From Hyphomicrobiales bacterium (lineage in GTDB: Bacteria; Pseudomonadota; Alphaproteobacteria; Rhizobiales; Rhizobiaceae): a DNA stretch of 40,822 nucleotides. The stretch's first letter is position 1; each line of letters starts with the position of its first letter. The stretch spans positions 1-40,822 of the forward strand of contig JAALLE010000032.1 of the NCBI GenBank assembly GCA_011087605.1, written 5' to 3'. This document shows positions 9,037 to 24,835 of the stretch, one piece after another. The position numbers and the translations under genes were made by a program. The notes under the pieces are model-generated. The model was not told where the DNA came from, searched no databases, and was given only the letters and a program-made list of their open reading frames with translations.

Positions 9037-9072
9037 TGTTCACATAGCGCACTCTTGTTCAATAATGCATTT
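9037..9072. promoter_or_regulatory. IclR-type operator pair in the transporter/IclR intergenic region
   Basis: Two half-symmetric boxes start 19 bp apart: TGTTCACATAGCGCACT (9037-9053) and TGTTCAATAATGCATTT (9056-9072). The first matches the palindrome seen at four other places in this window; the second keeps the left arm TGTTC. The position, 23 bases before the binding-protein start and in the divergent region with the IclR gene, suits repression of both directions. Confidence 0.6.
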
Positions 9073-9166
9073 GCGCTTGTGAGTCACGCGAGAACGTGTT
9101 TTAGCCCAACGAATTCGTGTATCAGCGCCCGGGCGTCAATTGGATGCACAACATTTGGAACTTCAT

Positions 9167-10060
9167 ATGGGAAAGGCAAAGATGGGACGACAAAATACAA
9201 ACGACACCAAAGCCAAGGCGCCTTCGACGCAAAAAGCACCTGCGCAGGCTGGCCTTATGACAGCTGTACCCGATCAGACCGATATCGGCGATTCCACGAG
9301 CATGAACCCGCGCGATCATGTCAACTCGCTGGCTAGAGGGCTTCAGGTATTGCGTGCCTTTAACCGCACGGGGCGCAAGATGACACTCAGTGAAGTGGCT
9401 TCCGAGACCGGCAATACGCGCGCCGGGGCACGACGCATATTGCTGACATTGGTGCATGAAGGTTATGCAGTCGCAGAAGGCAAACTGTTTGATTTGACGC
9501 CGCAAGTGCTGGAATTGGGCCATTCCGTCCTGTCTTCCAAAGGCGTATGGGAAATCGCCAAGCCTTTCATAGACCATCTGTCGGAAGATGTGCATGAAAG
9601 TGTCTCCGCGGCAATTCTCGACAATTATGACGTGGTCTACGTCTCCGGATCACAATATCACCGGGTGATCAGCGTCGGGATCTCGGTTGGCGCGCGTTTT
9701 CCAGCCCATTGCACGGCTAATGGACGTGTGCTTCTGGCTGCTCAACCGGAGGAAAAGTGGCCGGCAATGCTGAAAGGCATCAAGCTCACCAAGCTGACGG
9801 CAAATACCGTGACGGACCTAGAAGAATTCAGGAATGTGCTGATAGAGGTGCGTGATCAGGGCTGGTCGATGGTGGATCAGGAACTCGAGATCGGATTGAT
9901 GTCCATTTCAGTACCCCTGACGACGAGTGCGGGTGTGCTTGTTGGAGCTATCAATGTGGGCGTGCCGACCTTGCGTTGTTCGCCAGAAGAAATGATCACC
10001 GACATTTTGCCCAAGCTGCAAACAACTGCCTTGAACATCTCAAAAGCGTTGAAGCGTTAA
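9167..10060 (+). CDS. IclR-family transcriptional regulator (PcaR/PobR-like)
   Basis: About 297 residues. A winged helix-turn-helix (roughly residues 73-96, MTLSEVASETGNTRAGARRI) follows a long polar, probably disordered N-terminus. The C-terminal effector domain is of IclR type, with ARFPAHCTANGRVLLA and DQELEIGLMSISVPL segments typical of the PcaR/PobR group. Start codons are ambiguous: ATG 9167 is chosen, while TTG 9140, ATG 9182 (GGGAAAGG nearby) and ATG 9302 are possible. The shortest would match the usual length of about 250 residues. It is divergent from the left operon and is the obvious candidate to bind the repeated palindromes at 9037, 13806, 15530, 22650 and 23923. Confidence 0.9.
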   Translation: MGKAKMGRQNTNDTKAKAPSTQKAPAQAGLMTAVPDQTDIGDSTSMNPRDHVNSLARGLQVLRAFNRTGRKMTLSEVASETGNTRAGARRILLTLVHEGYAVAEGKLFDLTPQVLELGHSVLSSKGVWEIAKPFIDHLSEDVHESVSAAILDNYDVVYVSGSQYHRVISVGISVGARFPAHCTANGRVLLAAQPEEKWPAMLKGIKLTKLTANTVTDLEEFRNVLIEVRDQGWSMVDQELEIGLMSISVPLTTSAGVLVGAINVGVPTLRCSPEEMITDILPKLQTTALNISKALKR

Positions 10061-10063
10061 GCT

Positions 10064-11188
10064 TCAATTTGCAAAACGCGCCGGGCTGTAACGCTCGATC
10101 ACGCTGTGGTCGGCTTTGCCCAACAGGCAGTTTGCGGCGAGTCTGGCAACCAGCGGCCCCAGCGTGTAACCAGCGTCGCCCGGCACGGCCATCACCAATC
10201 GGTCGCTGGCGGGAAGGGGGCCAATAACCGATGCACCATCCATCGTTGTGTTCATGCCTGCCCAGGTGCGAATAATCCGCAAGTTGCCGATGGTCGGCAC
10301 AAGTTGGGCAGCCAGCGACACATTCCCCAAAAGCGATAACGGATCGACGGTTGGCACCTGGCTCAAACCGCGATCATTTGCAGACCATCCACCGCCAATA
10401 ACGATTTGTCCTGACTTAAATTGTTTGAGCGTGATCGAGCGCTCAGCGTGCTGAACAAGGTGGTCGATGCGGGCAGAACAGGCTTCAGTGATATTCATAT
10501 GCAGGGGTTCACCAACGGATGGAATGGTGACCCCGAAATTACCAACAAGCGCACCGGTACCCCATGCCGCCGCAATCACAGCCCGGTCGGCCTGATAGGT
10601 ATCGGTTTGGCCGATTGCTTCGACGCGCTTGCCAACGGTTAGATTTTGAATCCGGTCCTGCAGAAATTGCACGCCAAGTCCATCGGCAACAGCGCGCAAC
10701 CGCCGGTTAGCGACAAGGGGATTTACCTTGCCCTCGTTCAGACACAGCTCGGCGCCGATGATGTGTGGTCCCAGCCAGGGGGCAATTTGTTCCAGCGCAT
10801 GTCTGTCCAGGATTTCGACAGAAACACCTTTTTTGGCTTCGCGTTTCGCCTTTTTTTCCAGAAACGAAAGTTGCTTTTGATCCTCTGCAAGCATCAGTCC
10901 GCCTTTGCGGATCATTTCGACCGGACCGTATTTTGCGTCAATGCGCTCCCATTCCTCAACGGCCCGAAGATAGAGCGGAAGCGATGCCTCGATATTGGGT
11001 ACCTGGTCGGGATAAATCCGCATGAAGCGGCTTTGCATCTGAACGTGCAGGCTTCCGGCATTTGCAGTTGATCCGGCGTTTATTCCGGCGTCGACGACTG
11101 TGACTTTGGCTCCCGCATTCGCCAGTTTGATTGCGGTGATCTGTCCAACGATGCCGCCCCCGACAATCAGAATGTCATTCGGGATCAT
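10064..11188 (-). CDS. FAD-dependent oxidase/dehydrogenase, beta-subunit type (DadA/HcnC/OoxB-like)
   Basis: This 374-residue DAO-family flavoprotein has the dinucleotide motif VGGGIVG (9-15) and the NAGSLHVQ segment also present in two other oxidases of this window. It overlaps the upstream iron-sulfur/FAD subunit gene by 14 bp. The pair therefore resembles the catalytic beta and electron-transfer alpha subunits of opine oxidase, hydrogen cyanide synthase or D-hydroxyproline dehydrogenase. It should oxidise a C-N bond of a secondary amine or D-amino acid to an imine. Its stop lies three bases from the convergent IclR gene end, with no terminator between. Confidence 0.87.
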   Translation of the reverse strand: MIPNDILIVGGGIVGQITAIKLANAGAKVTVVDAGINAGSTANAGSLHVQMQSRFMRIYPDQVPNIEASLPLYLRAVEEWERIDAKYGPVEMIRKGGLMLAEDQKQLSFLEKKAKREAKKGVSVEILDRHALEQIAPWLGPHIIGAELCLNEGKVNPLVANRRLRAVADGLGVQFLQDRIQNLTVGKRVEAIGQTDTYQADRAVIAAAWGTGALVGNFGVTIPSVGEPLHMNITEACSARIDHLVQHAERSITLKQFKSGQIVIGGGWSANDRGLSQVPTVDPLSLLGNVSLAAQLVPTIGNLRIIRTWAGMNTTMDGASVIGPLPASDRLVMAVPGDAGYTLGPLVARLAANCLLGKADHSVIERYSPARFAN

Positions 11189-12842
11189 CCAGCGCCTCCT
11201 GCGCCGCCAGGATCGACGAAATGGCGATGGGTTTGATCGGAGCGCGCGGGGCGAAATGGCTGAGATCTTCGATCGGTTTGCCGGTAATTTGGGCTACCAG
11301 CCTTGTCGCTACCGGGCCGCAATAACGCCCCTGGCAGCGTCCCATCCCGACGCGCGTTGCGCGTTTCAAACTGCCGGCATGGCCAGGTGAAGTTTCAAGG
11401 CCGTCGAGGATTTCGCCCAGGGTAATTTCTTCGCAACGACAGACAATGGTTTCGGGTGCCGATGTATCGGGGAGTTTGGGTCGCACATCGTGCAGCTTCC
11501 AAAGGTAGTTTTGAAAATTGCGATGCCGGGCAAGGCTACGGTCCTCGGGATAGCTGTCCTGAGCGCTTCCAAAACCGGCCCGGGCTGCAGCAGCGCGACC
11601 GGCGATTGTGCCTTCATCACGCGCTGCCGGAGCGCCACCAAGTCCGGCACAGTCGCCAACGGCAAATAGGTTCGAAATGCTGGTTTCCATCCTGCGGTCC
11701 CGATCACATCGCAAGTGTCCCATCGCCCCATCGTAGGTCATGCTCGCCCCCAGGAGCCGCAATACTTCATTCTGCGGCTCGAAGCCGTCGTTCATGCAAA
11801 TCACGTCGACAGTTTCGCTGAATTCCGATCCGGACGCGGTTTTGAACGTGGCGCGCAGGCCGTCTTCCACCTGCTCGATGGTGTGCAGCGAAGTTTGATG
11901 GCGAAGCGGAATACTTTGTCGCTTCAATTCCCGCATCATGCCGATGCCTTTAAAAACAAGCCCTGGATCAGCTGTGATTGCCTTGAGCGAAATCCACGGG
12001 TGCTGCCATGGGGCTGATGCCGTTTCTGCAACCATGACGACCTGTGAACCACCCTGCGCAAGTTCCAGCGCGACTTGCACATTCAGTGGCCCTGATCCGC
12101 AAACCACCACGCGTTTTCCAGGAGTGGTTCGATAGCTGCGCCACAAGGTCTGCGCCGCGCCGGTGGTCATCACCCCGGGCAAAGTCCAGCCCGGCACCAT
12201 TCGAGGCCGTTCGTAGGCACCGGTCGCGATTATTGCCGTCTTTGGCCGCACAACCAGCGCTGCGCCGCCGACATCGGCCAAAAACAACGGCCCGTCGAAT
12301 GCCCCCCAGATTTCCACGGACCCCATAATTTCTGCACCACTCTCCTGTGCATGTTTGAGCAACGTCGCGCCCTCAGCTTGCTGGGCGTCGAGCGGAGGAT
12401 GGCTGGCAGACTGTTTGTAATATTGTCCACCTGCAACCTTGCGCTCGTCCATCACGAGCACGCTGGAGCCTGCTTTGCGGGCGGCGATTGCCGCTGACAA
12501 GCCACCTGCGCCACCACCAATGATGGCAACATCCGGTTCCAGTATTTGGGCAGGGGTCGCGGTCGGCGGGACGGGCATTTGATTTAACTGCGGGAACGCT
12601 ATTTGTGGTTCGATCTCCAACCCGAAAGCAGCAGGCGTCATACAGGCGCGCTGGTTGGGGAGGCCATCGATCGTAATCAGGCAATCCTGGCACACGCCCA
12701 TTCCGCAGAACATGCCCCTGTTTTCGCCTTTAGCCGATTGCCGAAGCACACGCTGCCCAGCTTCGGTCAGAGCCGCAGCGATCGACTGCCCTTCACGGAA
12801 ACCGATAGATTTGCCAGCAAAATTAAACCTGTCTGTAGTCAC
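11175..12842 (-). CDS. Iron-sulfur/FAD oxidoreductase alpha subunit with fused gamma domain (HcnA-HcnB type)
   Basis: The 555-residue protein joins three modules. A plant-type [2Fe-2S] domain comes first (Cys46, Cys51, Cys54, Cys67 in CGMGVCQDC...C). A pyridine nucleotide-disulfide oxidoreductase-like FAD/NAD domain follows (GGGAGG 109-114; second Rossmann motif CGSGPLN near 248). A BFD-like [2Fe-2S] domain is last (Cys468, Cys470, Cys503, Cys508). In related enzymes the small ferredoxin-like subunit is separate; here it is fused. It passes electrons from the FAD beta subunit encoded next. The GTG start at 12842 overlaps the upstream gene stop (GTGA). Confidence 0.88.
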   Translation of the reverse strand: MTTDRFNFAGKSIGFREGQSIAAALTEAGQRVLRQSAKGENRGMFCGMGVCQDCLITIDGLPNQRACMTPAAFGLEIEPQIAFPQLNQMPVPPTATPAQILEPDVAIIGGGAGGLSAAIAARKAGSSVLVMDERKVAGGQYYKQSASHPPLDAQQAEGATLLKHAQESGAEIMGSVEIWGAFDGPLFLADVGGAALVVRPKTAIIATGAYERPRMVPGWTLPGVMTTGAAQTLWRSYRTTPGKRVVVCGSGPLNVQVALELAQGGSQVVMVAETASAPWQHPWISLKAITADPGLVFKGIGMMRELKRQSIPLRHQTSLHTIEQVEDGLRATFKTASGSEFSETVDVICMNDGFEPQNEVLRLLGASMTYDGAMGHLRCDRDRRMETSISNLFAVGDCAGLGGAPAARDEGTIAGRAAAARAGFGSAQDSYPEDRSLARHRNFQNYLWKLHDVRPKLPDTSAPETIVCRCEEITLGEILDGLETSPGHAGSLKRATRVGMGRCQGRYCGPVATRLVAQITGKPIEDLSHFAPRAPIKPIAISSILAAQEALDDPE

Positions 12843-13783
12843 GCATCACCCCGCAGAAGCTGGTTACGCAAGCCAACCAGTTTGGCAACTGCTTTAGAGC
12901 GCCATGCAGCGCGTTCAGGGATCGATTGATCTCCGCGAACCGCGTCTCGAGATTCAGCAACTTTTTTCACCAGCTCGTCAGACCAGTTTACCACTTCGCC
13001 GCGCGATTCTCCCATTCGCTTGTACGCTGGGCCCATCCTCGCGGCATGGGCGACAATGCCGCCGGGGGTGTTGAGTTCGGCTGTTTCAAACGGACCCGAC
13101 AGGGCCCATCTGGGCCCAAGACCCAGCCGCATGACCTTATCGATGTCGTTGGGCGCAGTAATGCCATCATCGACAAGTCGATAGGCTTCGCGCAGAACCG
13201 CACCCTGCAGGCGGTTCAACAGGAATCCCTCGATTTCCCGGGTCAGGATCGTTGGCTCAAAACCTGCGTCGGTGAAAAGACTGGCAACTTGTTGGATTGT
13301 CTGGCGGGAAGTTCCTGGAGCTGGACACAGTTCGATGAGGCGTAAAACCGCCGGTGGATTAACCGGATGAGCAACAAGACAGCGGCTTTGCCGGTCGAAG
13401 TCGGTCACGATTTGAGACATGGGAATTGCCGATGATGCAGTGACGAGCAACGTTCCTGCCTCCGTAATCGACAACAGCTCGGAAAATATTTCCCGTTTGA
13501 ATTCAAGATTTTCGGGGCCACATTCAATGACCAGAGCAGCTCTATTCAGTGCTGCATCGGCAGAACTGACGGTCTCGATAATGCCATCAAGGTTCAGATT
13601 CAATCCAGCCAATGCCATGGCCTGATTTTGCTCCTTGATGCCATCACCGGCGGCGCGAAGCCGTTCCGGGTCGGGGTCACACAATGTCACCCGCCAGCCG
13701 TTGTCGGCCAGCACAGCCGCAAAGGAAATTCCAATAAACCCTGCACCCAGGATGACCGCTCGGTGATCAGTCTCGATAGCCAA
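12839..13783 (-). CDS. 3-hydroxyacyl-CoA dehydrogenase family protein, L-gulonate 3-dehydrogenase/lambda-crystallin-like
   Basis: About 314 residues. The N-terminal Rossmann domain has GAGFIG (13-18). The catalytic region is VAHPVNPP (His139), followed by IELCP (Glu151). The C-terminal helical domain (EGFLLNRLQGAVLREAYRLVDDGI) closely follows CRYL1/L-gulonate 3-dehydrogenase; carnitine dehydrogenase is a related alternative. No CoA-pathway genes are nearby, so a small hydroxy-acid substrate is more likely. The start is a TTG at 13783 with AGG six bases upstream; the frame stays open to 13858 but would then cross the operator at 13806. It leads a three-gene block with the alpha and beta oxidase genes. 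Confidence 0.82.
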   Translation of the reverse strand: MAIETDHRAVILGAGFIGISFAAVLADNGWRVTLCDPDPERLRAAGDGIKEQNQAMALAGLNLNLDGIIETVSSADAALNRAALVIECGPENLEFKREIFSELLSITEAGTLLVTASSAIPMSQIVTDFDRQSRCLVAHPVNPPAVLRLIELCPAPGTSRQTIQQVASLFTDAGFEPTILTREIEGFLLNRLQGAVLREAYRLVDDGITAPNDIDKVMRLGLGPRWALSGPFETAELNTPGGIVAHAARMGPAYKRMGESRGEVVNWSDELVKKVAESRDAVRGDQSIPERAAWRSKAVAKLVGLRNQLLRGDA

Positions 13784-13805
13784 ACTAAACCTTTTCCTTG
13801 CATTA

Positions 13806-13822
13806 TGTTCGCATGGCGAACA
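13806..13822. promoter_or_regulatory. IclR-type operator, best palindrome of the set
   Basis: TGTTCGCATGGCGAACA has perfect 7-bp arms around a 3-bp centre. It lies between the divergent gulonate dehydrogenase-like gene (TTG at 13783) and the SDR gene (ATG at 13874). A further partial site on the minus strand (13829-13845) begins TGTTCGAAT. The closeness to the 13783 start suggests repression. Confidence 0.65.
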
Positions 13823-13873
13823 AAAGTACAAATATAATTCGAACATGTCACCATGCAAGAAGGATTTCGGATC

Positions 13874-14632
13874 ATGCCAGCCTCACAAGACCTTGCCGGG
13901 CGAAATGCCGTCGTTACCGGTGGCGCATCAGGATTAGGCAGTGCTATTGCCGCCAGATTGGCAGAATCGGGAGCGGTCGTCACAATTGTCGATCTGGAAA
14001 CCGCCAGAAACAATGTACCGAGCGAATTTAAATTCTTTGGTTGCGATCTTGGTTCAACCGACGCCAGGAACCAAATTATGAAACTGGCAAACGAACTTGG
14101 CAGGCTTGATATTCTCGTGGCCAATGCAGGTGTTGTGCCTCCCTGGCGCGTTATGGCTGAAGTTGATGGGCAGGAATGGCAGCGCGTGATGGCCATTAAT
14201 ACGTGGGGCGTAGCCGCCAGCATCGGAGCATTTACAGGCTTGTTGAGCCAGTCTGATTGCGCCTCCATTGTTGTGATGGCGTCGATCAATGGGTTTCGTG
14301 CGCATCCAAAGCAGGTGCTATATACAGCTTCAAAACATGCCGCCATTGGCATCACCCGGGCCGCAGCGCTTGATCTTGGGGCAAGCGGAATTCGGGTTAA
14401 CGCAATTGCGCCGGGCCCGATTGCAACCGACGCGCTCTTGGGGCGCATATCAGCCCGGCACGAGGCTGGCGGGCCTGAGCCTGAAGCGGTTGTGCAGGCA
14501 ATGGATGCAGAAACCGCACTTGGACATATGGCCACTGAAACCGATGTCGCCAATGTGGCTCACTTCCTGGCGTCCGACGCATCGGCAGGCATGACAGGCT
14601 CAGTCCTGCCGGTGGAAGCAGGGCTTGTCTGA
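13874..14632 (+). CDS. SDR-family NAD(P)-dependent oxidoreductase
   Basis: This 252-residue classical SDR has TGGASGLG (15-22), NAG (84-86), and the catalytic Ser137, Tyr150 and Lys154 (YTASK). I chose the ATG at 13874, which has AAGGA upstream, over an ATG at 13853 that has no ribosome-binding site and would add seven residues. It is transcribed away from the oxidase block under a shared operator at 13806. It ends 18 bp from a convergent isomerase gene. Its substrate is unknown; the context suggests a hydroxy or keto intermediate. Confidence 0.86.
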   Translation: MPASQDLAGRNAVVTGGASGLGSAIAARLAESGAVVTIVDLETARNNVPSEFKFFGCDLGSTDARNQIMKLANELGRLDILVANAGVVPPWRVMAEVDGQEWQRVMAINTWGVAASIGAFTGLLSQSDCASIVVMASINGFRAHPKQVLYTASKHAAIGITRAAALDLGASGIRVNAIAPGPIATDALLGRISARHEAGGPEPEAVVQAMDAETALGHMATETDVANVAHFLASDASAGMTGSVLPVEAGLV

Positions 14633-14650
14633 CGCACACTTTGGTTAAGT

Positions 14651-15490
14651 TTAGGGTAGGGGATTCCATCCTGCATCGGACAGAATCTTGTGGCTGGCTA
14701 TGATATCGCCGTCCGGGTCAGCGCCCGGTTGAAGTGCATCGGTGATAATCTCCAGCACTGTTACTTTGTCATAGCCGGTGTCCTTAAGCGCCTGGGCCGT
14801 TGGACCGGGCTCGACAATGCCGGTGCCAAGACGGGCATGTACAAATTCTTCATAGCCGCTGTCTGAAATGTGCACATTTTTCAGCCTGTCACCCATCATG
14901 CGGATCGCGGCAGCGGGGTCTTCCTTGATAAATGCGCTGTTACAAACGTCAAAATTAATACCGATCTCGGGACCGATCAGGTCGGCCGTGTCGATCATGT
15001 CTTGTGCCGAAGGCAGGTAGGTAAAAGGAACGTTCTCCAACAGCAGTTCAACCCCGGTGCCTTTGGAATGTTCGACCAGCTTCTTCATGCCCTCAACGAA
15101 CCAATCGAGCATCCACTGGTGGGGTGGGTTGATCAGACTGTTGACGGGTCCCGGAATGGCGACAACGTAGGGGCAGGACAATTCTGCCGCGAAATCGATT
15201 GCTTCTCGATAGCGGTCCAGCGTGTATTCCCGCATGAGTTTGTCCACACCATTTGGGTTGTTATCCAGCAGCGGGTAACAGAAGGACGAGATGCGTACGC
15301 CTTCTCCCGTAAGCCAGGATTTGTATTCCTTGCGCTTGTCAGATGACAATTCACGTGGCCAGCAATGTGGCGGAAAGATCATCAGCTCAAATATGTCGTA
15401 GCCAAGACTTTGAAGATGTTTCATCGCCCCCAAACCGTCGTGGGAATACAGAAACGGAAACGTACTGGCTGCAACTTCGAGCTTTGTCAT
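14651..15490 (-). CDS. Sugar phosphate isomerase/epimerase family TIM barrel (xylose isomerase-like)
   Basis: The 279-residue AP-endonuclease-2/xylose-isomerase-like barrel has the expected divalent metal ligands: Glu152 (LLLENVPF), Asp181 (INFDVCN), His207 (VHISDSG) and Glu247 (TVLEIIT). Members isomerise or epimerise keto sugars and sugar acids, or dehydrate inositol derivatives. It is a single gene, divergent from the Old Yellow Enzyme gene, with the tandem operator at 15530-15565 between them. The assignment to the superfamily is firm; the reaction is not known. Confidence 0.83.
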   Translation of the reverse strand: MTKLEVAASTFPFLYSHDGLGAMKHLQSLGYDIFELMIFPPHCWPRELSSDKRKEYKSWLTGEGVRISSFCYPLLDNNPNGVDKLMREYTLDRYREAIDFAAELSCPYVVAIPGPVNSLINPPHQWMLDWFVEGMKKLVEHSKGTGVELLLENVPFTYLPSAQDMIDTADLIGPEIGINFDVCNSAFIKEDPAAAIRMMGDRLKNVHISDSGYEEFVHARLGTGIVEPGPTAQALKDTGYDKVTVLEIITDALQPGADPDGDIIASHKILSDAGWNPLP

Positions 15491-15529
15491 TTGAATGGGT
15501 TCCTTTTCACTTGTCAGAATGGGTCGACA

Positions 15530-15565
15530 TGTTCAGTCTACGCACAAATGTTTCTATACCGCACG
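15530..15565. promoter_or_regulatory. Tandem IclR-type operators in a divergent promoter region
   Basis: TGTTCAGTCTACGCACA (15530-15546) keeps both outer arms of the shared palindrome. A second box, TGTTTCTATACCGCACG (15549-15565), starts 19 bp later on the same strand. They lie 39 bases before the isomerase start and 34 bases before the Old Yellow Enzyme start, so one occupied site could govern both genes. Confidence 0.6.
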
Positions 15566-15599
15566 AATGCGCGGAGCAATGTGAATTATAGGAGACTTG

Positions 15600-16700
15600 A
15601 TGGCCAGTACACTTTTTTCGCCGATTACGCTGCGGGAGTTGACGATCTCCAACAGGGTAACCGTCGCTCCCATGTGCCAATATTCGGCCCAGGATGGCAT
15701 TCCCCAAAACTGGCATCTGGCGCATCTTGGGCAGTTTGCCATGTCCGGTCCGGGCCTGATCTTTACTGAAGCTACGGGGGTGGAACCTGATGGGCGGATA
15801 ACGCTGGGCTGCACTGGTCTATATGATGATGCGACCGAGAGTTCATTTGCGCGGATTGTTTCTTTCCTGAAATCCGTGGCTGACATGGCCGTTGGAATTC
15901 AGCTTGGTCACGCGGGCAGAAAGGGGAATACGGTCGAACCATGGCTCGGGGGTGGTATGATTGAAGGCAAAGGTGCTTGGCATCCGCAAGCCCCATCTGC
16001 CGTTCCCTATCTTCCAGGCTGGCCGGCGCCCGATCCAATGAATGAAGCGGATATGGAGCGCATAACACTGGCATTCGTGGACGCAGCTCACAGGGCAGAA
16101 CGAGCGGGGTTCGACATAATTCAGTTGCATGTTGCCCATGGATACTTGCTTCATCAATTTCTGTCTCCGATCACTAACAAGCGCGACGACGGATATGGCG
16201 GCAGTCTGGAAGCCCGAATGCGTTATCCGCTGGAAGTCTTCAAAGCGGTTCGAGAGGCCTTTCCGGCTGAAAAGCCTGTAATGGTTCGTTTGTCCGCAAC
16301 AGACTGGATTGATGGGGGATGGGATATTGAGCAATCGATCGAATTTTGCCGCGCGCTCAAGGAATTGGGCTGCGACATGATAGATGTCTCATCCGGCGGG
16401 TTGGATCAGGCACAGGAGATCGTTACAGGGCCGGGATATCAGGTCGACTTTTCAGCGCGCATTCGTGCTGAAGCGCAGATACCAACCATGTCGGTGGGGC
16501 AGATTACCGATCCAATCCAGGCCGAAACAATTTTGCGTTCTGGTCAGGCGGACATGATCGCGCTGGCCCGTGGCATGCTGTGGGATCCGCGCTGGACATG
16601 GAAAGCAGCAATTGCTCTGGATGAAGAGATCGCCCTTCCAGCCCCATACGCACGCTGTAATCCAAATCTGCGCGCTACACCTTTTGTTTCAAGGAGTTAG
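15600..16700 (+). CDS. NADH:flavin oxidoreductase, Old Yellow Enzyme family (YqjM-type)
   Basis: This 366-residue FMN-dependent TIM barrel has the YqjM-class signature: Cys26 in VAPMCQY and the paired His177/His180 in QLHVAHGYLLHQF. These enzymes reduce activated C=C bonds of enones or act on related unsaturated compounds. The ATG at 15600 has AGGAG five bases upstream; an in-frame TTG directly before it is too close to the Shine-Dalgarno. It is followed three bases later by an SDR gene, forming a two-gene operon behind the tandem operators. Confidence 0.9.
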   Translation: MASTLFSPITLRELTISNRVTVAPMCQYSAQDGIPQNWHLAHLGQFAMSGPGLIFTEATGVEPDGRITLGCTGLYDDATESSFARIVSFLKSVADMAVGIQLGHAGRKGNTVEPWLGGGMIEGKGAWHPQAPSAVPYLPGWPAPDPMNEADMERITLAFVDAAHRAERAGFDIIQLHVAHGYLLHQFLSPITNKRDDGYGGSLEARMRYPLEVFKAVREAFPAEKPVMVRLSATDWIDGGWDIEQSIEFCRALKELGCDMIDVSSGGLDQAQEIVTGPGYQVDFSARIRAEAQIPTMSVGQITDPIQAETILRSGQADMIALARGMLWDPRWTWKAAIALDEEIALPAPYARCNPNLRATPFVSRS

Positions 16701-16703
16701 AGC

Positions 16704-17477
16704 ATGGGCACGCTTTCGGGAAAGACAGTCATCGTCACCGGTGCTTCAAAAGGGATTGGCGCCGCAATTGCCGAGGCGATGATTGCGGCGGATGCCAAGG
16801 TGATTGCCCATTATGGTAGTGATCGCGCGGGTGTAGAAGCAGCGACCGCAGGCGCAAAACCCGGGCAAGTGACGCTTTTGCAAGCCGATCTTGCCGATAT
16901 AGCAGCGGTTGACACTTTTTGGGAGAAGGCGGTCACAGCAGCTAATGGGCGAATTGATGTATTGATCAACAATGCCGGCATCATGCAGCAGGCGGGGGGC
17001 ATCGAGGATCCGATTGAAAACTGGGACGAGGCCTGGGAACAATCCATGGCGGTCAATGTTTATGCTCCCGCGCGCATGCTCCGCCATGCAGTGCGCAACT
17101 GGCTTGATGCGGGTTCGGGTGGTTCGGTTATCGCGATCGGCAGCTGGGTGACTACTCGTGGCACATCGAATCCTGGCGCAATTGCCTATGCGGCCTCCAA
17201 AGCAGCGATCGCTGCGGCGACCAAGACCGTGGCGCGAAATTACGCTGATCAATCCATATTGGCCTATGTAATTGCCCCTGGTGTGGTCAACACCCAGATG
17301 TCAGTGGAAAGCGCTGCCAAGACGGGTGGCGTAGTGGCGGTGACCGCCAGCCTGCCGATGGGGGAATGGGTCCCACCATCGGACATCGCGGAAATGGCGG
17401 TTTTTCTGGCCGAGGGCAGGGCGCGCCATTTGACCGGTGCAACCATCGATCTTAACGGCGCGGCCTATATCAGATGA
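16704..17477 (+). CDS. SDR-family NAD(P)-dependent oxidoreductase
   Basis: The 257-residue classical SDR has TGASKGIG (12-19), NNAG (89-92), Ser147, Tyr162 and Lys166 (YAASK). It is the second gene of the Old Yellow Enzyme operon, with AAGGAG upstream of the ATG. Its stop codon is only two bases from the stop of the convergent lyase gene, and no terminator separates them. It probably acts in series with the flavin enzyme on an alpha,beta-unsaturated or keto intermediate; that is inference. Confidence 0.87.
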   Translation: MGTLSGKTVIVTGASKGIGAAIAEAMIAADAKVIAHYGSDRAGVEAATAGAKPGQVTLLQADLADIAAVDTFWEKAVTAANGRIDVLINNAGIMQQAGGIEDPIENWDEAWEQSMAVNVYAPARMLRHAVRNWLDAGSGGSVIAIGSWVTTRGTSNPGAIAYAASKAAIAAATKTVARNYADQSILAYVIAPGVVNTQMSVESAAKTGGVVAVTASLPMGEWVPPSDIAEMAVFLAEGRARHLTGATIDLNGAAYIR

Positions 17478-17479
17478 GG

Positions 17480-18439
17480 CTATTCGGCGGCGGTGGCGGC
17501 GACGGGTTGAGTCTCTATCCCGTCAACAACGGTGTCCAATTGTTGCATCAACGGCACCATCCGGGCGACACGCTCACGGCCTTCTTCGCCCAGGCTCTCG
17601 AAGGTGGTGTTGGGTGCTCGCACGTCTCCAACCGGATGACCCGCAGCTGCGGCCAATGCTTTCGAGTAGCATTGATGGCCATACAGCGGGTGTCCCTGCG
17701 TAATAATCGTATCGAACTGGGAGATAACGGACTGAACCGCCTGGACATCGTCCCAACGCTCCTGCTCGGCCCATTCAACAAACTTCACCGATGCGCGCGG
17801 GATGTAATTTCCGTAGGGATTGACGTAGCCCATGGCGCCCATTTTGTAGCTTTCCAACACGCGCTGACCTGCCCACGGGTTCATGTGCCCCTCACTTTCA
17901 ACCAATATGTCGTGGATGCGTTCTATGCGCTGCGACGCTTCCTTGATATATCTGATCTGCTCAAAACTCTTGGCAAGCCGTCCAACCAGCTTGGCAGACA
18001 TGTCAACGTTCGAAGTAAAGGGATTGTTATACAGCATAATCTGCAAATCCTGCGCCTCGCAGATCGCCCGGTAATACTCAAATATTTCGTCGTCGGTTGG
18101 CGTATAATAATATGGCGGAATGATCATCAATCCGTCCGCGCCCAAATGTTCAGCCTCTTTGGAATAGCGAACAGCGTTGGGCGGATAGGCGTTCATGGTT
18201 CCGACCCAAACAACCATGCGTCCGTTCACATATTCCACCGTCTTCTTAACAAATTCTGTCCGTTCGGCGTCGGTGATCGTCAGGAATTCGCCGGTTGTTC
18301 CAAGGATAATCACGCCGGGCACACCGCACTCCAATTGCCAGTCGAGAAATCCCTGCCAGGCTTCATAGTCTATCTCCGCACCGCCGGGGGTGAATGGCGT
18401 AACGGCGACGGTGTGGCTGCCGGAATAAGTTGGTTTCAT
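17480..18439 (-). CDS. DHDPS/N-acetylneuraminate lyase family protein
   Basis: This 319-residue class I lyase barrel has the GTTGEF loop (47-52), Tyr137 (MLYNNPF) and Schiff-base Lys166 (YIKEAS). The segment DGLMIIPPYYYTPTDDEIF resembles the lyase at 33938 more than the other two family members here, so these are likely paralogues. A short Ala-rich tail follows residue 305. The ATG at 18439 has AGAGGA seven bases upstream. It lies head to head with the FAD oxidase gene only 29 bp away, and tail to tail with the SDR gene. Confidence 0.86.
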   Translation of the reverse strand: MKPTYSGSHTVAVTPFTPGGAEIDYEAWQGFLDWQLECGVPGVIILGTTGEFLTITDAERTEFVKKTVEYVNGRMVVWVGTMNAYPPNAVRYSKEAEHLGADGLMIIPPYYYTPTDDEIFEYYRAICEAQDLQIMLYNNPFTSNVDMSAKLVGRLAKSFEQIRYIKEASQRIERIHDILVESEGHMNPWAGQRVLESYKMGAMGYVNPYGNYIPRASVKFVEWAEQERWDDVQAVQSVISQFDTIITQGHPLYGHQCYSKALAAAAGHPVGDVRAPNTTFESLGEEGRERVARMVPLMQQLDTVVDGIETQPVAATAAE

Positions 18440-18468
18440 CTTTCGGTCCTCTTCAAGGTCGACGCGGC

Positions 18469-19605
18469 ATGACCCGCGTGGAAGTTGTTATCATTGGCGG
18501 TGGAATTGTCGGTCTTATGACCGCGTGGTTTTTGGCGTCCGAGGGTGTCGACGTTGTCTTGCTGGAGGCAGGTGATCTGGGTGCGGAAGCTTCCGGGGCA
18601 AATGCCGGGTCCTTGCATCTGCAGATTCAATATCCTGAATTCGTCAAATACGGTGAAGACTGGGCAAAAGCCTATGCCCCAACGCTTCGGTTTCTCGAAG
18701 CTTCGATCGGAATGTGGCAGGATCTGGGGCAACAGGTTGGCGAGGATCTGGATGTCAAACTGGGTGGTGGCATCGTTGTGGCGCGACAGGCGGCTCAGAT
18801 GCGCTTGATCGAAGCGAAGGCCCGGATCGAAGCCAGTGTCGGCATCGAAACCCGTATTCTCGACCGCAAAGAATTGCTCGACATTGCACCTTATCTTTCG
18901 GATCAAGCCATCGGCGGCGGTCTTTGCGCGGGGGAAGGCAAGGCCAATCCCTTGCGCGTTACGCCGGCGATAATCCGCGCAGCGGAAGCTGCCGGAGCGA
19001 TCTTGCACCGCGAAACTTCCGTGACTGGGCTGGCGGGACAAGCCGGAGCATTTACCGTCACCACGGCGCGTGGTTCGTATCAGGCCGACAACGTGGTCAA
19101 TACCGCTGGTGCCAGGGCTGCAGAAATTGCTTCGATGCTTGGCATGCAAATCGATCTTGGCGGTTTCCCGCTGCAGGTCAGTGTCACTGAGCCGATTGCT
19201 CCGTTGATTCCGCACCTGATCTATTCGGCCGCAGGTAAGTTGTCGTTGAAACAAGTGGCAAATGGCAGCTGTATTATTGGTGGTGGTTGGGCGGCCAACG
19301 TGCGTGAACATGGCGGGCTGGCGACCAATCCGGTGAATTTTACAGGCAATATGGCGATGGCGGCGGGGGTCGTGCCACAACTGACGCACGCTCGAGCCGT
19401 CAGGAGTTGGACTGCCTGGGTCAATGGCACACCGGACTGGCGCCCGATAATTGGAGAAGCACCAGGAATTCCCGGTTTCTTCCTTGGGCTGTTTCCCTGG
19501 GTTGGCTTCAGCGCCGGGCCGCTGACCGCGCGGGTAATTGCCGACCTGGTACTGGGCCACCCGCCGGCAATGGACATGAAGGGGATTTCCGTCCTTGTGG
19601 ACTGA
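18469..19605 (+). CDS. Orphan FAD-dependent oxidase (DadA/glycine oxidase-like)
   Basis: The 378-residue DAO-family flavoprotein has GGGIVG at 10-15 and the shared NAGSLHLQ segment (near residues 45-52). Unlike the homologue at 10064 it has no iron-sulfur alpha partner gene beside it. It may work as a true oxidase, or share the alpha subunit encoded at 11175. ATG 18469 has AAGG about ten bases upstream, which is a weak site. The divergent lyase gene begins 29 bp away, and the gcvPB-like gene converges 18 bp after the stop. A role on sarcosine, glycine or imino-acid type substrates is suggested by family and by the glycine dehydrogenase-like neighbour. Confidence 0.84.
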   Translation: MTRVEVVIIGGGIVGLMTAWFLASEGVDVVLLEAGDLGAEASGANAGSLHLQIQYPEFVKYGEDWAKAYAPTLRFLEASIGMWQDLGQQVGEDLDVKLGGGIVVARQAAQMRLIEAKARIEASVGIETRILDRKELLDIAPYLSDQAIGGGLCAGEGKANPLRVTPAIIRAAEAAGAILHRETSVTGLAGQAGAFTVTTARGSYQADNVVNTAGARAAEIASMLGMQIDLGGFPLQVSVTEPIAPLIPHLIYSAAGKLSLKQVANGSCIIGGGWAANVREHGGLATNPVNFTGNMAMAAGVVPQLTHARAVRSWTAWVNGTPDWRPIIGEAPGIPGFFLGLFPWVGFSAGPLTARVIADLVLGHPPAMDMKGISVLVD

Positions 19606-19623
19606 CATGGTCACACTCATGAT

Positions 19624-21195
19624 TCATGCAACGTCTTTGGCATTTTGTTTGGCTTTGTCTTCGCCCAAAATCTTCCGTTGATAGGCACGCCAGGTCATGG
19701 CCCATTTCTGTGGGTCTTCAAAGGCATCGCCTTTAACCTGAGCGATTGCCTGATTGTGCGGTGCGGTTTTGACCAATTCAGGGTTTGTCCGCGCTTCTTC
19801 TGCAATCTGAGCAATGACACCGATCCAGGTATCAATATCCTCCTTCGACCACAGTTCGCCGGCCTCTGGCGTGAAAGGCTCCGCCACGATCCATGGCTCA
19901 TGGCTCATCCAATAGGGATCAATGCCGTAATCAGCCATTCGGTTGGCAAAATCGGCGGTCGATACACCGGTCTCTTCGGTCAATTCACCTAACGACCAGC
20001 GCGTCATTTCCATGCGGTGCGTGGTGATAGACGGGTTGGATATGGTAAGTCCCGGTATCTGAGCCAGTTTCTTATCCATGTAATTATTGGCGACTACCGA
20101 TATGTCCGAAGCCAGCTGAATGCCATCGGCTCCCATGGCACGCGACCAGGCATATGCTTTTACAACCTGTGGCACGTTGCCCCAGAACTCTCGCACTTTT
20201 CCTGCAGATTTCGGGCGGTCCTCGTCAAGAACGTACCGGTCTCTTTCTTTCACCGCCACTGGACACGGCAGGTAAGGGGCCAGCTTGTCGGTGCATCCAT
20301 AGGCTCCGACAGCCGGACCGCCGCCAGCTTTTGGTGCGCCAAATGTCTTGTGCAACATGAACATGCAGGCATCAAACCCCAGCTCCCGGGCGGAAAGCTT
20401 GCCCATCACACCGTTAAAGTTGGCGTGGTCGTAAAAGCACAGCGCCCCGGCTTCCTTGGCGACCCTCACCCATTCCTTGATCTCGGGATTGTATATGCCC
20501 ATGTCGTCAGGATTGTTGATCATGATCAGTGCGGTTTTTTCACTCACCGCTGCCTTCAACGCGGCAAGCGAAGGATAGCCATTTTCCTCAAGCGGCAGGT
20601 TCACCACCTTGAACCCGGCAGCAGCAGCTGTCGCTGGATTACAAGGGTGCGCCTGGACAGATGTCACCATTTCGGTGCGCTGGTCCAGCATTCCGCGATC
20701 TTGCCAATAGGCGCGGGCGACAGCTGCCATGGTGTAGGCCGCATCGGCCCCGCCACCAGCCTGAAATATGAACTGATCCATGCCGGACAGGCTTTGCAAA
20801 ATGCCATCGAAGTCGTGGATGATTTCGAGCACGCCCTGCAAAGTATCTTCGTGCTGGTAGGGGTGCACTTCCGCCAATTGCGGGCGCAGTGTCGCATATT
20901 CGGCGGTCTTGGAATTGTATTTCATCGTACAGGTGCCGAACAGGCTAACGCCCATCATGCCAAGCGTCATCTGGCTGAGATGAAGATAATGCCTTTGCGC
21001 TTCAAACTCTGTGATTTCGGGCAGGTCAGCCCGGTCCTTGCGGGCCATGGATTCGGGAATCAGGTCTGTTCCAACGGCCGATATTATCTCTTCTTCCGGG
21101 GCTGCAAAAAGCTGGCCGCGTGCACCGGAGCGGCCCATTTCCATGACCACGGGCTCGTTCCATTTGGCAGCGCGAAATTCTGGGATGCGGGTCAT
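19624..21195 (-). CDS. gcvPB: Glycine dehydrogenase (decarboxylating) subunit 2-like protein
   Basis: This 523-residue PLP enzyme of the GcvP beta half keeps the GTCTMKYN segment (88-95) and the PLP lysine Lys283 in MLHKTFG. However, the motif I recall as LHKTFCIPHGGGGPG in normal GcvP reads LHKTFGAPKAGGGPA here, and YYDGANLN reads YDHANFN. This suggests a divergent paralogue with altered substrate handling. ATG 21195 has AAGGAGG with a seven-base spacer and overlaps the gcvPA-like stop as ATGA. No gcvT, gcvH or lipoamide dehydrogenase gene is in the window, so either it uses distant partners or it does not serve the glycine cleavage system. Confidence 0.85.
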   Translation of the reverse strand: MTRIPEFRAAKWNEPVVMEMGRSGARGQLFAAPEEEIISAVGTDLIPESMARKDRADLPEITEFEAQRHYLHLSQMTLGMMGVSLFGTCTMKYNSKTAEYATLRPQLAEVHPYQHEDTLQGVLEIIHDFDGILQSLSGMDQFIFQAGGGADAAYTMAAVARAYWQDRGMLDQRTEMVTSVQAHPCNPATAAAAGFKVVNLPLEENGYPSLAALKAAVSEKTALIMINNPDDMGIYNPEIKEWVRVAKEAGALCFYDHANFNGVMGKLSARELGFDACMFMLHKTFGAPKAGGGPAVGAYGCTDKLAPYLPCPVAVKERDRYVLDEDRPKSAGKVREFWGNVPQVVKAYAWSRAMGADGIQLASDISVVANNYMDKKLAQIPGLTISNPSITTHRMEMTRWSLGELTEETGVSTADFANRMADYGIDPYWMSHEPWIVAEPFTPEAGELWSKEDIDTWIGVIAQIAEEARTNPELVKTAPHNQAIAQVKGDAFEDPQKWAMTWRAYQRKILGEDKAKQNAKDVA

Positions 21196-22598
21196 GACAA
21201 AACCTCCTTGAGCGTGTTGGCCAGTGTGCGAATATCTGCGGCAGTGTGTATTTCGGTGACACAATAAAGCGCCGACTGACCAAGCGCATTGTTCTCGTCT
21301 GAAATGTCCTTTCCACCAAAGATGCCGCGTCCACGGAGCAATTGGTTTATCTCGGCAACCGTCTTTCCGGTGCCGTCAAAATTCACCACAAATTCCTTGA
21401 ATGTTGTGTCAGGCCAGACGATTTTGACGCCCGGAACGTCAGCAATGCATTTGGCGGCGTAGCGGGCTCTGCTGACGATCAAGGTGCCGAGTTCCCTGAA
21501 TCCTTCAGGGCCCAAAAGACTCATATAAACGGCACCGGCGATTGCCCACAGATAGGTCGAGTTGCCGGTCCAGTCTTTGCCGTGTTCTCGCGAGCCGTAG
21601 GAGTTCTGATGCGGGCAGGCCAGACCGAAGCCAAGCTGCCCCGGCTCTTGTGTTTCGACAATCGATACCAGGAATCCGTTATACTCCAGAACGTATTTTT
21701 CTTCGTCGCGGGAGGCGATAAATCCACCCACGCCACCGCCGCATTGCATATGTACCCCCAGGGGCTGCACTGGTCCGGTCACGATATCAGCGCCATAATC
21801 ACCCGGCGCCGTCATCACGCCCAATGAGACCGGATCGATCCCGACAATCGTCTCTGCACCTGCAGCGCGCGTTAATCGTGCGATCTCTGCCGCCTCAGCC
21901 TCAATCGTTCCGAGATAGGCCGGGTTTTCAAAATATACGGCGGCGACATCGTCTGCCAATTTTGATTGCAAGTCGTTCAGATCAATTCTGCCGGTTGTTG
22001 GGTCAACAGCTACCTCAACAACTTCGATATGGCTGTCCATCGCGGTGGGCTGGCAATAGGTTCGTAGCACCGACAGCCGCTCCGGATCCGAAAGCTGGGA
22101 GACAATCACTTTCGAACGGCCTGTAATTCGTTGCGCCATGCGAACGGCGTGGCCGATTGCACACCCCCAGGAATAAACCGGTAATTGCACCACATCGAGA
22201 TTGAGCAGCGCACCCAATTGGGAGGAAAATTCAAACCACGCCTGATTGCGCCCGTGATCTGATTGATAGCTGCCCCAGACATTCGTTGCGAATTCGGTGC
22301 GACCGACAATCTCATCAACAATAGCTGGCACGTGATGTTGCCAGACCCCTGCACCCAAGAAGCTGAGATTGGCTTCGCAATCTGCGTTCTTGTTCAGTTT
22401 TTGGAGCAGATCCCGCTTCAACTCCATTTCAGAAGAAAGCGTCGGCGGAAGTTGAAGCGGTTCTGTTCGATAATGATCCTGCGGGATCTGCTCAAACACC
22501 GTGGCAACAGACTCTGCTCCGATTTCGTCCAGCATCGCCTGAATTGCACCAGGGGCCGAATTCGCCATCCAGGGATGAGCGGGTGTGTTGTCGGTCAT
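21192..22598 (-). CDS. gcvPA: Glycine dehydrogenase (decarboxylating) subunit 1-like protein
   Basis: The 468-residue partner of the GcvPB-like protein recognisably follows the GcvP alpha half: FLGAGVWQHHVPAIVDEIVGR, and QAWFEFSSQLGALLNLDVV matching QAIFEFQSLICELTGMDVA. The usual S-x-YDGATA segment is replaced by LPVYSWGCAIGHA, so the active-site lining differs from the housekeeping enzyme. The ATG at 22598 has GGAG six bases upstream; longer in-frame starts run through the operator at 22650 and are rejected. It is the first gene of a two-gene operon controlled from that operator. Confidence 0.85.
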   Translation of the reverse strand: MTDNTPAHPWMANSAPGAIQAMLDEIGAESVATVFEQIPQDHYRTEPLQLPPTLSSEMELKRDLLQKLNKNADCEANLSFLGAGVWQHHVPAIVDEIVGRTEFATNVWGSYQSDHGRNQAWFEFSSQLGALLNLDVVQLPVYSWGCAIGHAVRMAQRITGRSKVIVSQLSDPERLSVLRTYCQPTAMDSHIEVVEVAVDPTTGRIDLNDLQSKLADDVAAVYFENPAYLGTIEAEAAEIARLTRAAGAETIVGIDPVSLGVMTAPGDYGADIVTGPVQPLGVHMQCGGGVGGFIASRDEEKYVLEYNGFLVSIVETQEPGQLGFGLACPHQNSYGSREHGKDWTGNSTYLWAIAGAVYMSLLGPEGFRELGTLIVSRARYAAKCIADVPGVKIVWPDTTFKEFVVNFDGTGKTVAEINQLLRGRGIFGGKDISDENNALGQSALYCVTEIHTAADIRTLANTLKEVLS

Positions 22599-22637
22599 GA
22601 TAAGCTCCATGTTGACGGCCATGTGGCAGGCACGATG

Positions 22638-22666
22638 TTTGTGCACAAATGTTCGCATATCGCACA
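22638..22666. promoter_or_regulatory. IclR-type operator next to a TTTGTGCACAAA palindrome
   Basis: TGTTCGCATATCGCACA (22650-22666) is a close copy of the shared operator, 51 bases upstream of the gcvPA-like start. Immediately beside it, TTTGTGCACAAA (22638-22649) is a perfect 12-bp palindrome. It contains the same decamer found over the GntR start at 39892. The pair may be a composite site for two regulators. Confidence 0.6.
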
Positions 22667-22673
22667 AGGCTAA

Positions 22674-23783
22674 TCAACAAGAAGCGATGCACATTATCAT
22701 CTCGCGATTGGCACCTGTGGAGACGCGAATATAGCCCTGTAGTTCAGCATCAAGGTCGGGGTCTCCCGTATCGACCAACAGATGGGGCCGGGCCAGGGCA
22801 GTCAATTTGTTTTCGGTCGCCAGGATGATCAGACCGCTTCGGCCCGCCTTGGAGATAAGGGTGGGTCCGATCTGCTGATTGCCCCGGCCCAGCAGAAAAC
22901 CTTGTTGCCCGGTCACTCCCAGGACAACTCGCACGTCCCGGCCTTCGGCCAGTTGCTGCAATGATGCCTGATCGGCATCCCGCGCCACGACCTTGCCATT
23001 CAACATCGCGTCCACCCCCAATGTTGTCGGCAGATGTCCGGCCGCACTCATGACAGCACCGGCGCTGGTACCTGGTCCGATGATGTAGAGGATATCAGGA
23101 TCCATATCGGTGACGATCTGCTGCGCCGCGCTTGAAAGAGCCTGCGCCGCATCCTGGCGTAGCTGTCCTTTCGCCGCTTGCATAAGATTGCGCGACACAG
23201 GTATCCGCGCCAGACCATAGAGGCGAGGAGCCAGAATGCCCTGTCGCAATGCCTCCTCATCTATGTCCATAATCTCAGCGTCATCCGTCCAAGTGATGCG
23301 TTCAGGTGATGCCACCAGATCTGCCAGCATGGCTCCGGCAGATTGTGGAGAAACGGCGAAAACGCCGGAATGCATCTTCACCCCACAGGGGATGCCAAGA
23401 AGCGCGGCATCACCAGCAACACTGGCCACGTCTCTGGCCGTGCCATCTCCCCCGGCAAAAGCAATCACGTCGAGCTTTCCCATCAAGCGGACAGTGTCCT
23501 TGGTATCGCGGGCGGAACCGGAAAGGGCTGGGAGATCTACAACCGTGGTTTTTAAATCGAGCTCATGGATCCACTCTTCACCCAGTGTATTAGCCGCGAC
23601 AATGATATCAGCGCCGGGGACTCGTTCGGCCATTCTGGTGAGCGCAAATCGCGCCCGCGAGCCGGCTTTGGCCTCGGCGCCACGCCGCATCGATTCTGCC
23701 ACTGCATCGGGGCCATCGGTGCCCTTCAGCCCGACGGCACCACCAAGTCCGGCAAATGGATTGACGATCAGACCAATACGCAT
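22674..23783 (-). CDS. ATP-NAD kinase family protein (COG3199, AcoX-like)
   Basis: About 369 residues, opening with MRIGLIVNPFAG and carrying the NAD-kinase phosphate-binding motif GGDGT (111-115) in AFAGGDGT. The rest follows the COG3199/AcoX group, larger than PpnK, with a C-terminal domain of uncertain role. Members are found beside catabolic clusters such as acetoin degradation. They may phosphorylate NAD or a non-nucleotide intermediate. The start at 23783 matches the family; ATG 23822 is 13 codons longer, and the frame is open as far as 24059. It is separated from the divergent transporter by an operator at 23923. Its stop is next to the gcvPA-like promoter. Confidence 0.8.
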   Translation of the reverse strand: MRIGLIVNPFAGLGGAVGLKGTDGPDAVAESMRRGAEAKAGSRARFALTRMAERVPGADIIVAANTLGEEWIHELDLKTTVVDLPALSGSARDTKDTVRLMGKLDVIAFAGGDGTARDVASVAGDAALLGIPCGVKMHSGVFAVSPQSAGAMLADLVASPERITWTDDAEIMDIDEEALRQGILAPRLYGLARIPVSRNLMQAAKGQLRQDAAQALSSAAQQIVTDMDPDILYIIGPGTSAGAVMSAAGHLPTTLGVDAMLNGKVVARDADQASLQQLAEGRDVRVVLGVTGQQGFLLGRGNQQIGPTLISKAGRSGLIILATENKLTALARPHLLVDTGDPDLDAELQGYIRVSTGANREMIMCIASC

Positions 23784-23922
23784 ACCGGCATTTGGCCAGT
23801 TATCGGATGCGCGTGCAATCATAATTTTGAACCAGAAGCAGAGGCCAGCGATCCCAGCGACCCAAAAGATTCCTCGGGGATTGACAGAAGGAAGAATCTC
23901 CTTGACGCTGAATGTGTACAAA

Positions 23923-23939
23923 AGTTCGTTTTGCGCACA
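23923..23939. promoter_or_regulatory. IclR-type operator upstream of the second transporter operon
   Basis: AGTTCGTTTTGCGCACA keeps the GTTCG and GCGCACA arms of the shared palindrome. It lies 71 bases before the binding-protein start (24011) and about 140 bases before the divergent NAD-kinase-like start. A weaker right-arm element ending GTGTACA (23914-23920) lies 19 bp upstream. Confidence 0.5.
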
Positions 23940-24820: not shown

Positions 24821-24835
24821 GTGATTGACAACGAA

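Follow-up and report, generated by a model that had tools for sequence, protein, structure and literature searches.

In PMC8222616 (Suvorova and Gelfand 2021), the operators of IclR-type regulators are described as TGT-11-ACA palindromes or as GTNCG-N5-6-CGNAC, and three-box sites, for which PcaU is an example, are assigned to 32 orthologous groups. The extra half-site of the three-box type (PcaU, PobR, and HmgR) alternates in direction and lies 1–2 nucleotides (nt) off the palindrome, and tandem IclR sites lie 18–22 nt apart. Here we describe a 40,822-base stretch of DNA (the window), which is one whole contig (JAALLE010000032.1) of a 4.19-Mb Hyphomicrobiales genome in 177 contigs (GCA_011087605.1), and a catabolic and nutrient-uptake island of approximately 30 kb within it that is marked by five copies of a 17-bp palindrome. 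These palindromes are very probably the operators of a PcaR-subfamily IclR protein encoded in the island (9140–10060, plus strand), and jointly they would constitute a self-contained regulon that spans most of the island, including autoregulation through the palindrome at 9037. This predicted regulon appears to be new, albeit of a known IclR type; no description of it turned up in the literature listings and abstract openings searched, and it may be listed in the supplementary regulon tables of PMC8222616.

The five 17-mers reported by a preceding sequence-only reading were recovered letter for letter at 9037, 13806, 15530, 22650, and 23923. Putative operator 1 (TGTTCACATAGCGCACT, 9037–9053) lies between a UgpB-like gene (ATG 9013, minus strand) and iclR (plus strand), and putative operator 2 (TGTTCGCATGGCGAACA, 13806–13822) lies between a set of 3-hydroxyacyl-CoA dehydrogenase-like (HCDH), SoxA, and DAO genes (TTG 13783, minus) and SDR3 (ATG 13874, plus). 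Putative operator 3 (TGTTCAGTCTACGCACA, 15530–15546) separates an isomerase-like gene (ISO; ATG 15490, minus) from an Old Yellow Enzyme (OYE) gene (plus), putative operator 4 (TGTTCGCATATCGCACA, 22650–22666) lies upstream of a gcvPA-like gene, and putative operator 5 (AGTTCGTTTTGCGCACA, 23923–23939) lies between an NAD-kinase-like gene (NADK, minus) and HisJ-type transporter genes (plus). The gene names are shorthand taken from NCBIfam and Pfam matches; naming by eye applies to the SDRs, to the permeases and ATPases of the transporters, and to the other genes that were not scanned. Four of the palindromes have the probable start codon of a gene on either side; the palindrome at 22650 lies between a stop and a start, 8 bases beyond the stop codon of the NAD-kinase-like gene, and precedes gcvPA alone, and its placing has been amended here. 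The iclR gene, formerly placed at the first-listed site, adjoins the site at 9037. Four of the five sites overlap mechanically extended open reading frames (ORFs), and better starts are found further in, at least for UgpB and HCDH, which have Shine-Dalgarno-like sequences before ATG 9013 (AAGGAGG) and TTG 13783 (AAGGAAAAGG), respectively.

The IclR protein scores 297.9 bits against the TIGR02431 family (PcaR/PcaU/PobR; cut-off 284.75), as was anticipated by the earlier recognition of a PcaR-type gene, and contains the HTH_IclR (PF09339) and IclR_C (PF01614) domains, both above the gathering score; its true start is uncertain and is perhaps ATG 9167 or 9182. Solved relatives include 8eju, which is named for the Pca regulon. 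Three arginines (R44, R48, and R49) are invariant in all 13 aligned IclR proteins and match, by spacing only, Arg56, Arg60, and Arg61 of PobR as given in PMC8222616. BhcR (NF045644) belongs to the same family and is the next best NCBIfam match; an identification as BhcR was rejected, since the score is 129.2 bits against a cut-off of 350. The protein and its sites share with PcaR/PcaU/PobR-type regulators the family model, the operator form, tandem sites at 18–20 bp, and, at about half of the sites, a third box. By contrast, the island comprises transporter, amine-oxidase, SDR, DHDPS, aminotransferase, and GcvP-like genes. Among 20 proteins of the window that were compared with NCBIfam (including UgpB, HCDH, the isomerase, OYE, GcvPA, and HisJ), not one passes the cut-off for a beta-ketoadipate or 4-hydroxybenzoate enzyme, with SDR3, approximately 18 further genes, and the remaining genome lying outside this search; the pca or pob targets that would mark a PcaR orthologue controlling the beta-ketoadipate pathway are therefore not found among these 20 proteins.

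The consensus of the 17-bp palindrome, TGTTCGCAWTGCGAACA, fits the group 1 form TGT-11-ACA (TGTYCRYW3RYGRACA-like), with T/G instead of T/C at position 4, and contains the Corynebacterium glutamicum PcaR consensus GTTCGC-N3-GCGAAC tabulated in PMC8222616, in line with the earlier remark on PcaR-type operators. C. glutamicum PcaR itself is recorded for 4-hydroxybenzoate and protocatechuate use; it has other targets and belongs to another phylum than the IclR protein of the island. The consensus rests on sites of relatives that were picked with a weight matrix made from the five window sites, and is biased towards that matrix. At 13 bits or more, 223 sites were collected, of which 4 lie inside gene cores and 210 of the remainder are non-redundant. 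A second palindrome (at least 6 bits) is found 18–20 bp away in 49 unique pairs, and the spacing of 19 bp was counted 50 times, compared with 0.08 in shuffled flanks. Furthermore, of 420 flanks, 116 have a third half-site in direct orientation whose distance to the first box is exactly 19 bp, compared with 0 to 8 at each other offset from 17 to 55, and 117 of the 210 sites have a third half-site at 18–20 bp on some side; the box order is exemplified by TGTTCG-N5-CGCACT-CT-TGTTCG. In the window, the third box is clear at operator 1 (TGTTCA, 9056–9061, plus strand, 19 bp from the first box; half-site score 8.9) and at operator 4 (TGCACA, 22642–22647, minus; 7.1), and weak at operator 5 (TGTACA, 23915–23920, minus; 4.3, below the threshold of 5 bits). 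Operator 3 is accompanied at +19 by a degenerate tandem copy (TGTTTCTATACCGCACG, 15549–15565; 5.6 bits), and operator 2 has no box at 19 bp. Since the tandem sites and the 19-bp third boxes match the habit published for IclR sites, they support the interpretation of the palindromes as IclR operators.

These sites are conserved in the islands of relatives. The IclR protein was found at E ≤ 1e-60 in 9 of 297 genomes of the family, including the host genome itself. With an alignment built from six IclR proteins, 80 named loci, the best among 511 confirmed ones, were taken from GTDB contigs. Approximately fifteen loci (L042–L045, L047, L048, L050, L051, and L053–L059), whose titles mostly name Rhodobacteraceae or relatives of Roseobacter and in some cases Microvirga and Roseibium, essentially retain the gene order of the window as far as they were read. 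In gap counts that exclude four loci repeating genomes already included (L065, L084, L085, and L089), the window matrix finds a site of at least 13 bits in almost all divergent gaps equivalent to those of operators 1, 2, and 3: UgpB/IclR in 31 of 32 gaps, HCDH/SDR3 in 18 of 19, and ISO/OYE in 14 of 17. Where genes are rearranged, sites are likewise present (HCDH/SDR4 in 8 of 11, ISO/DAO2 in 8 of 8, divergent NADK/GcvPA in 4 of 5, DAO2/OYE in 4 of 4, and SDR3/HisJ in 3 of 3), and a few same-strand gaps carry them as well (besides SDR3/HisJ, DHDPS2/SDR4 in 2 of 2, SoxA1/HisJ in 2 of 2, and same-strand NADK/GcvPA in 1 of 2), which is what promoters within a rearranged island would lead one to expect. 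The common internal and convergent gaps are free of sites (0 of 28 for UgpA/UgpB, 0 of 22 for SDR2/DHDPS1, 0 of 15 for DAO2/GcvPB, 0 of 15 for DAO1/SoxA1, and 0 of 11 for IclR/DAO1), and some gaps before IclR have few (AT/IclR 1 of 4; OYE/IclR 0 of 4). The coding DNA of the relatives gave only 3 matches in 679,188 positions. In gaps, the real matrix gave 150 matches, whereas 100 symmetric matrices with permuted columns gave 1.31 on average and never more than 9.

For the gaps around GcvPA and NADK, the NAD-kinase-like gene served as the anchor in the 16 genomes behind the loci. The GcvPA/NADK gap contains a site in 10 of these 16 and lacks one in L132 and in the five rearranged loci L133–L137. 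In the latter five, GcvPA and NADK lie closer together, and four of them have a site before NADK (L133, 12.8 bits; L135, 15.7; L136, 17.1; L137, 12.3). Directly before NADK, a site of at least 11 bits is present in 11 of the 16 loci; in L125 it lies before a GST gene adjoining NADK, and in L122 before HisJ. Where an insert separates NADK from HisJ (L166), a 17-mer identical to that of operator 5 (AGTTCGTTTTGCGCACA) begins 86 bp ahead of the HisJ match, and where the two genes are likewise separated in L167, distinct sites precede NADK (19.4 bits) and HisJ (22.6 bits). Since sites stand before HisJ where NADK is separated from it, operator 5 can be assigned to the HisJ genes at least. Thus, the sites appear to stay with their promoters upon gene rearrangement, and the palindromes are predicted to be conserved operators.

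That the palindromes arose by chance and were merely picked by eye seems extremely improbable, although single observations lend themselves to it. At 17 bits or more, the window contains 5 sites, compared with a mean of 0.095 and a maximum of 2 in 200 dinucleotide shuffles, with a matrix that was derived from those same five sites. With leave-one-out matrices (60 shuffles each), four of the five sites would be expected 0 to 0.017 times per window, whereas the site at 15530 would be expected 1.4 times and is not significant alone; it is conserved, however, as it reaches at least 13 bits in 14 of the 17 orthologous gaps and 12.6 in the remaining three. With the matrix of the relatives, a match inside a gene (33346–33362) outscores the site at 15530 (16.1 vs. 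15.1 bits). This match was rejected as an operator, lies approximately 600 bases inside a SoxAB-like fusion gene, and is probably fortuitous. The shuffles, the genome-wide patterns, the permuted matrices, and the conservation in orthologous gaps all speak against chance.

Across the host genome, the pattern WGTTCNNNNNNCGMACW, which fits all five sites, occurs at 15 places (17 matches over two strands), five in the window and ten as singles on ten other contigs, and its reversed form as a control gave 12 matches. The looser palindromic pattern WGTKCRNNNNNYGMACW occurs at 17 places, five in the window and 12 as singles on 12 other contigs (reversed control, 9), and in four island-free genomes of the same genus the places number 4, 7, 11, and 26. 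Since island-free genomes contain 4 to 26 places, it is the clustering that is special, and the total is not raised. With the window matrix, the five sites score 23.0, 22.3, 21.2, 20.8, and 17.2 bits, and the best of the ten outside places score 18.4, 18.3, 17.6, and 17.2. The search for similar sites elsewhere that the sequence-only reading had proposed, conducted here by pattern, therefore does not refute the local regulon, as the four top-scoring pattern-fitting places all lie in the window. The four outside places of at least 17 bits were rejected as distal regulon members: L009, L012, and L013 are within long ORFs, L011 is near the start or edge of a short ORF that we take to resemble a toxin-antitoxin gene, and none of the four resembles the metabolism of the island. 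Scores of the six further outside places run from 8.1 to 16.5 bits, and one of these, L014, may be intergenic.

A further line of evidence is the co-occurrence of the sites with IclR. All 45 named IclR loci with at least four island genes have a site, and 37 have at least two. The NAD-kinase-like gene (E ≤ 1e-45) is present in 4 of the 297 family genomes, including the host genome, and the three others found through it have an IclR gene (42, 51, and 61% identical) beside island genes, together with sites. In the class, it was found (E ≤ 1e-35) in 9 of 385 genomes, again including the host, and UgpB as an anchor that does not depend on IclR retrieved only the host genome from the same 385. Three of the eight other class genomes hold at least six island genes in the DNA read (G496, 13; G391, 12; G529, 6 in the main locus), and in the island DNA read from these three there is neither IclR nor a site of at least 11 bits; the contigs of G391 and G529 are short (15.6 and 16.1 kb), and the island may extend beyond the DNA read. 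The best IclR homologues elsewhere in these three genomes are 27 to 33% identical, and the pattern matches are on other contigs. The remaining five class genomes have 2–3 island genes in the DNA read and a single match of at least 11 bits (L164, 12.8), far from recognised genes; two of them (G619 and G399) have IclR homologues on other contigs (36 and 30% identical), and three have none at E ≤ 1e-15.

The G496 island bears on another explanation, namely that the palindromes serve a different regulator, either the GntR/FCD protein encoded in the window at 39861–40574 or one encoded elsewhere, with iclR as a bystander. In addition to the GntR/FCD gene of the window, one lies within the homologous island of G496 (L154:13884–14675). 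The gaps of the G496 island contain three palindromes of the GntR type, GTNNAC-N5-GTNNAC (L154 9392, 13768, and 17751; a fourth match in the locus lies outside the island genes); this form differs from the motif of the window and is absent from the eight further sequences that were scanned, among them the window. Moreover, the GntR protein of the window has no tblastn match in the islands of relatives, the motif and IclR are present or absent together, and the motif has the consensus and spacing published for IclR. We therefore regard another regulator as very unlikely. For G496, a regulator swap with a matching operator swap is probable in this one genome.

Several observations weigh against an IclR regulon of this form, or limit the counts in its favour. 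The matrix was built from the window sites, most of the loci were found through IclR, and several are near-identical relatives, so that the counts are not independent; the genome-wide scan of the host was made by pattern, and full-matrix scores refer only to places fitting the pattern. The UgpB/IclR gap of L088 reaches at best 8.5 bits, no site precedes NADK in L130, L132, and L134, the second contig of G066 has few and weaker sites (15.1, 12.7, and 11.2 bits), and 93 of the 210 sites lack a third box. Autoregulation is not general either, as among more distant loci the best match before IclR stays below 13 bits in L075–L084 and L087–L100; the exceptions are L085, L086, L089, and, in L080, a single one of the two paralogues.

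An IclR dimer, or a dimer of dimers, would bind the 17-bp palindrome, to which a third half-site is often added at a distance of 19 bp. In the absence of inducer, IclR would repress most promoters and block transcription until a pathway metabolite binds, the inducer being most likely a substrate or intermediate of the pathway. Binding, oligomeric state, sign, and effector are what we infer for this protein. Repression is the sign that we consider reasonably probable from the positions of the sites. The centres lie 31–32 nt before the start codons of UgpB and HCDH, beside the Shine-Dalgarno sequence, which favours repression and makes an activator site unlikely there. In addition, one promoter-like match (9039–9066, in the direction of iclR) overlaps operator 1 and was counted for repression. 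It is the only promoter match that overlaps any of the sites, and the scan as a whole is weak (12 matches in the window vs. 8.6 expected in shuffles); another match (22721–22693) lies just upstream of operator 4 and points towards gcvPA. PcaU and PobR act as activators, and it is conceivable, if rather doubtful, that IclR binds its sites mainly as an activator, or that it acts on each divergent pair by activating transcription on one side and repressing it on the other. The three-box operators of PcaU and PobR are the closest architecture in the published account, and the solved relative 5hpf is named p-hydroxybenzoate hydroxylase transcriptional activator. At several promoters, the site is centred 60 to 80 nt ahead of the start codon (SDR3, 60; OYE, 62; HisJ, 80), and activation is possible there. 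For UgpB and HCDH, repression remains the preferred sign.

The genes that would be governed by the five operators can be arranged as follows. A putative operon leading from operator 1 comprises UgpB, UgpA, UgpE, UgpC, DHDPS1, SDR2, SDR1, a class III aminotransferase, and a deacetylase-like gene (66–9013, minus strand; UgpA, UgpE, UgpC, and the SDRs named by eye). Operator 2 would serve a putative operon of HCDH, SoxA-like, and DAO-like oxidase genes (10064–13783, minus) and, on the other side, SDR3 (13874–14632, plus; named by eye), and operator 3 the isomerase-like gene, a TIM barrel (14651–15490, minus), and OYE with SDR4 (15600–17477, plus; SDR4 named by eye). From operator 4, the gcvPA-like and gcvPB-like genes, both above the NCBIfam cut-offs, would be transcribed (19624–22622, minus). 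Operator 5 would serve the NAD-kinase-like gene (22674–23780, minus; start codon uncertain) and a putative operon of the HisJ/Q/M/P-type transporter, GST, SDR5, cis-3-hydroxy-L-proline dehydratase, and DHDPS3 (24011–30588, plus), whose shared strand and spacing are the grounds for assuming co-transcription up to 30588. The divergent DHDPS2/DAO2 gap (18440–18468, approximately 29 bp) is without a site in the window, and no site of 13 bits was found in any of the 17 relatives having that gap; DHDPS2 and DAO2 relatives do carry sites where the genes are rearranged. The proposal that one IclR regulator governs most of 66–30588 draws strong support from conservation, from sites that follow their genes through rearrangement, from the co-occurrence with IclR, from family membership, and from the PcaR-type consensus, and it falls short at DHDPS2/DAO2. 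The region 30644–40574 lies outside the coverage of the regulon. The NAD-kinase-like protein, which adjoins split GcvP-like genes in the loci read around NADK, has no solved relative at E ≤ 0.001.

In midpoint-rooted trees of UgpB (39 rows) and SoxA1 (41 rows), the window groups with Roseobacter-group islands, with support of 100/99 and 99/96 for its five-row sets, and the rows of its own family stand apart (G066, G099, G112, G183, and G276 in UgpB; the last four in SoxA1, where G066 has no row). The gcvPA-like gene (E ≤ 1e-90) was found in none of 14 genomes of the same genus and, among 41 relatives, only in the host genome itself. Compared with a 29-kb sample of the remaining genome, the window has a G+C content of 0.553 vs. 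0.525 and a tetranucleotide correlation (r) of 0.942; this likeness speaks against a misbinned contig and does not rule out misbinning. Since the island lies among Rhodobacterales islands and its host belongs to another family, IclR and its operators probably moved together; the sequence-only reading had noted neither this probable horizontal origin nor the third box. A broader scenario, in which a self-contained regulon (the regulator, at least five operators, and approximately 25 genes) entered as one unit from Rhodobacterales, and in which another lineage was rewired to GntR/FCD with GntR operators, may be given about an even chance.

If the assignment is correct, one regulator and a precise operator can now be attached to a large, widely shared catabolic island, and the substrate of the island could be screened for directly, either with an iclR mutant or with a reporter fused to one of the five promoters. 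The island would also be a clear case of an operator set travelling with its regulator, and of the same island under a different regulator elsewhere; if the rewiring is true, it offers a natural test of how the operators of many promoters are exchanged upon a regulator swap.

Some additional observations concern related loci and the margin of the window. In four genomes, two IclR paralogues lie 10–29 kb apart in or near the island (L030/L031, L032/L033, L034/L035, and L036/L038), and two regulators may share one operator type there. Among L101–L120, the Burkholderia-titled loci encode an IclR protein of 43–45% identity without the island, and all 15 have an upstream site of at least 15 bits, 12 of them TGTTCTATATACGAACA. 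A Roseobacter-type island is also carried by L073, a record of Enemella evansiae (an actinobacterium by title), perhaps through assembly contamination. Searches of the window with Rfam (at the gathering threshold) and for tRNAs gave no match. Finally, a palindrome-like sequence, AGCACAAATTGTGCACA, is located at 39884–39900, near the divergent starts of a peptidase-like gene and the GntR gene, and is perhaps the site of that GntR protein.

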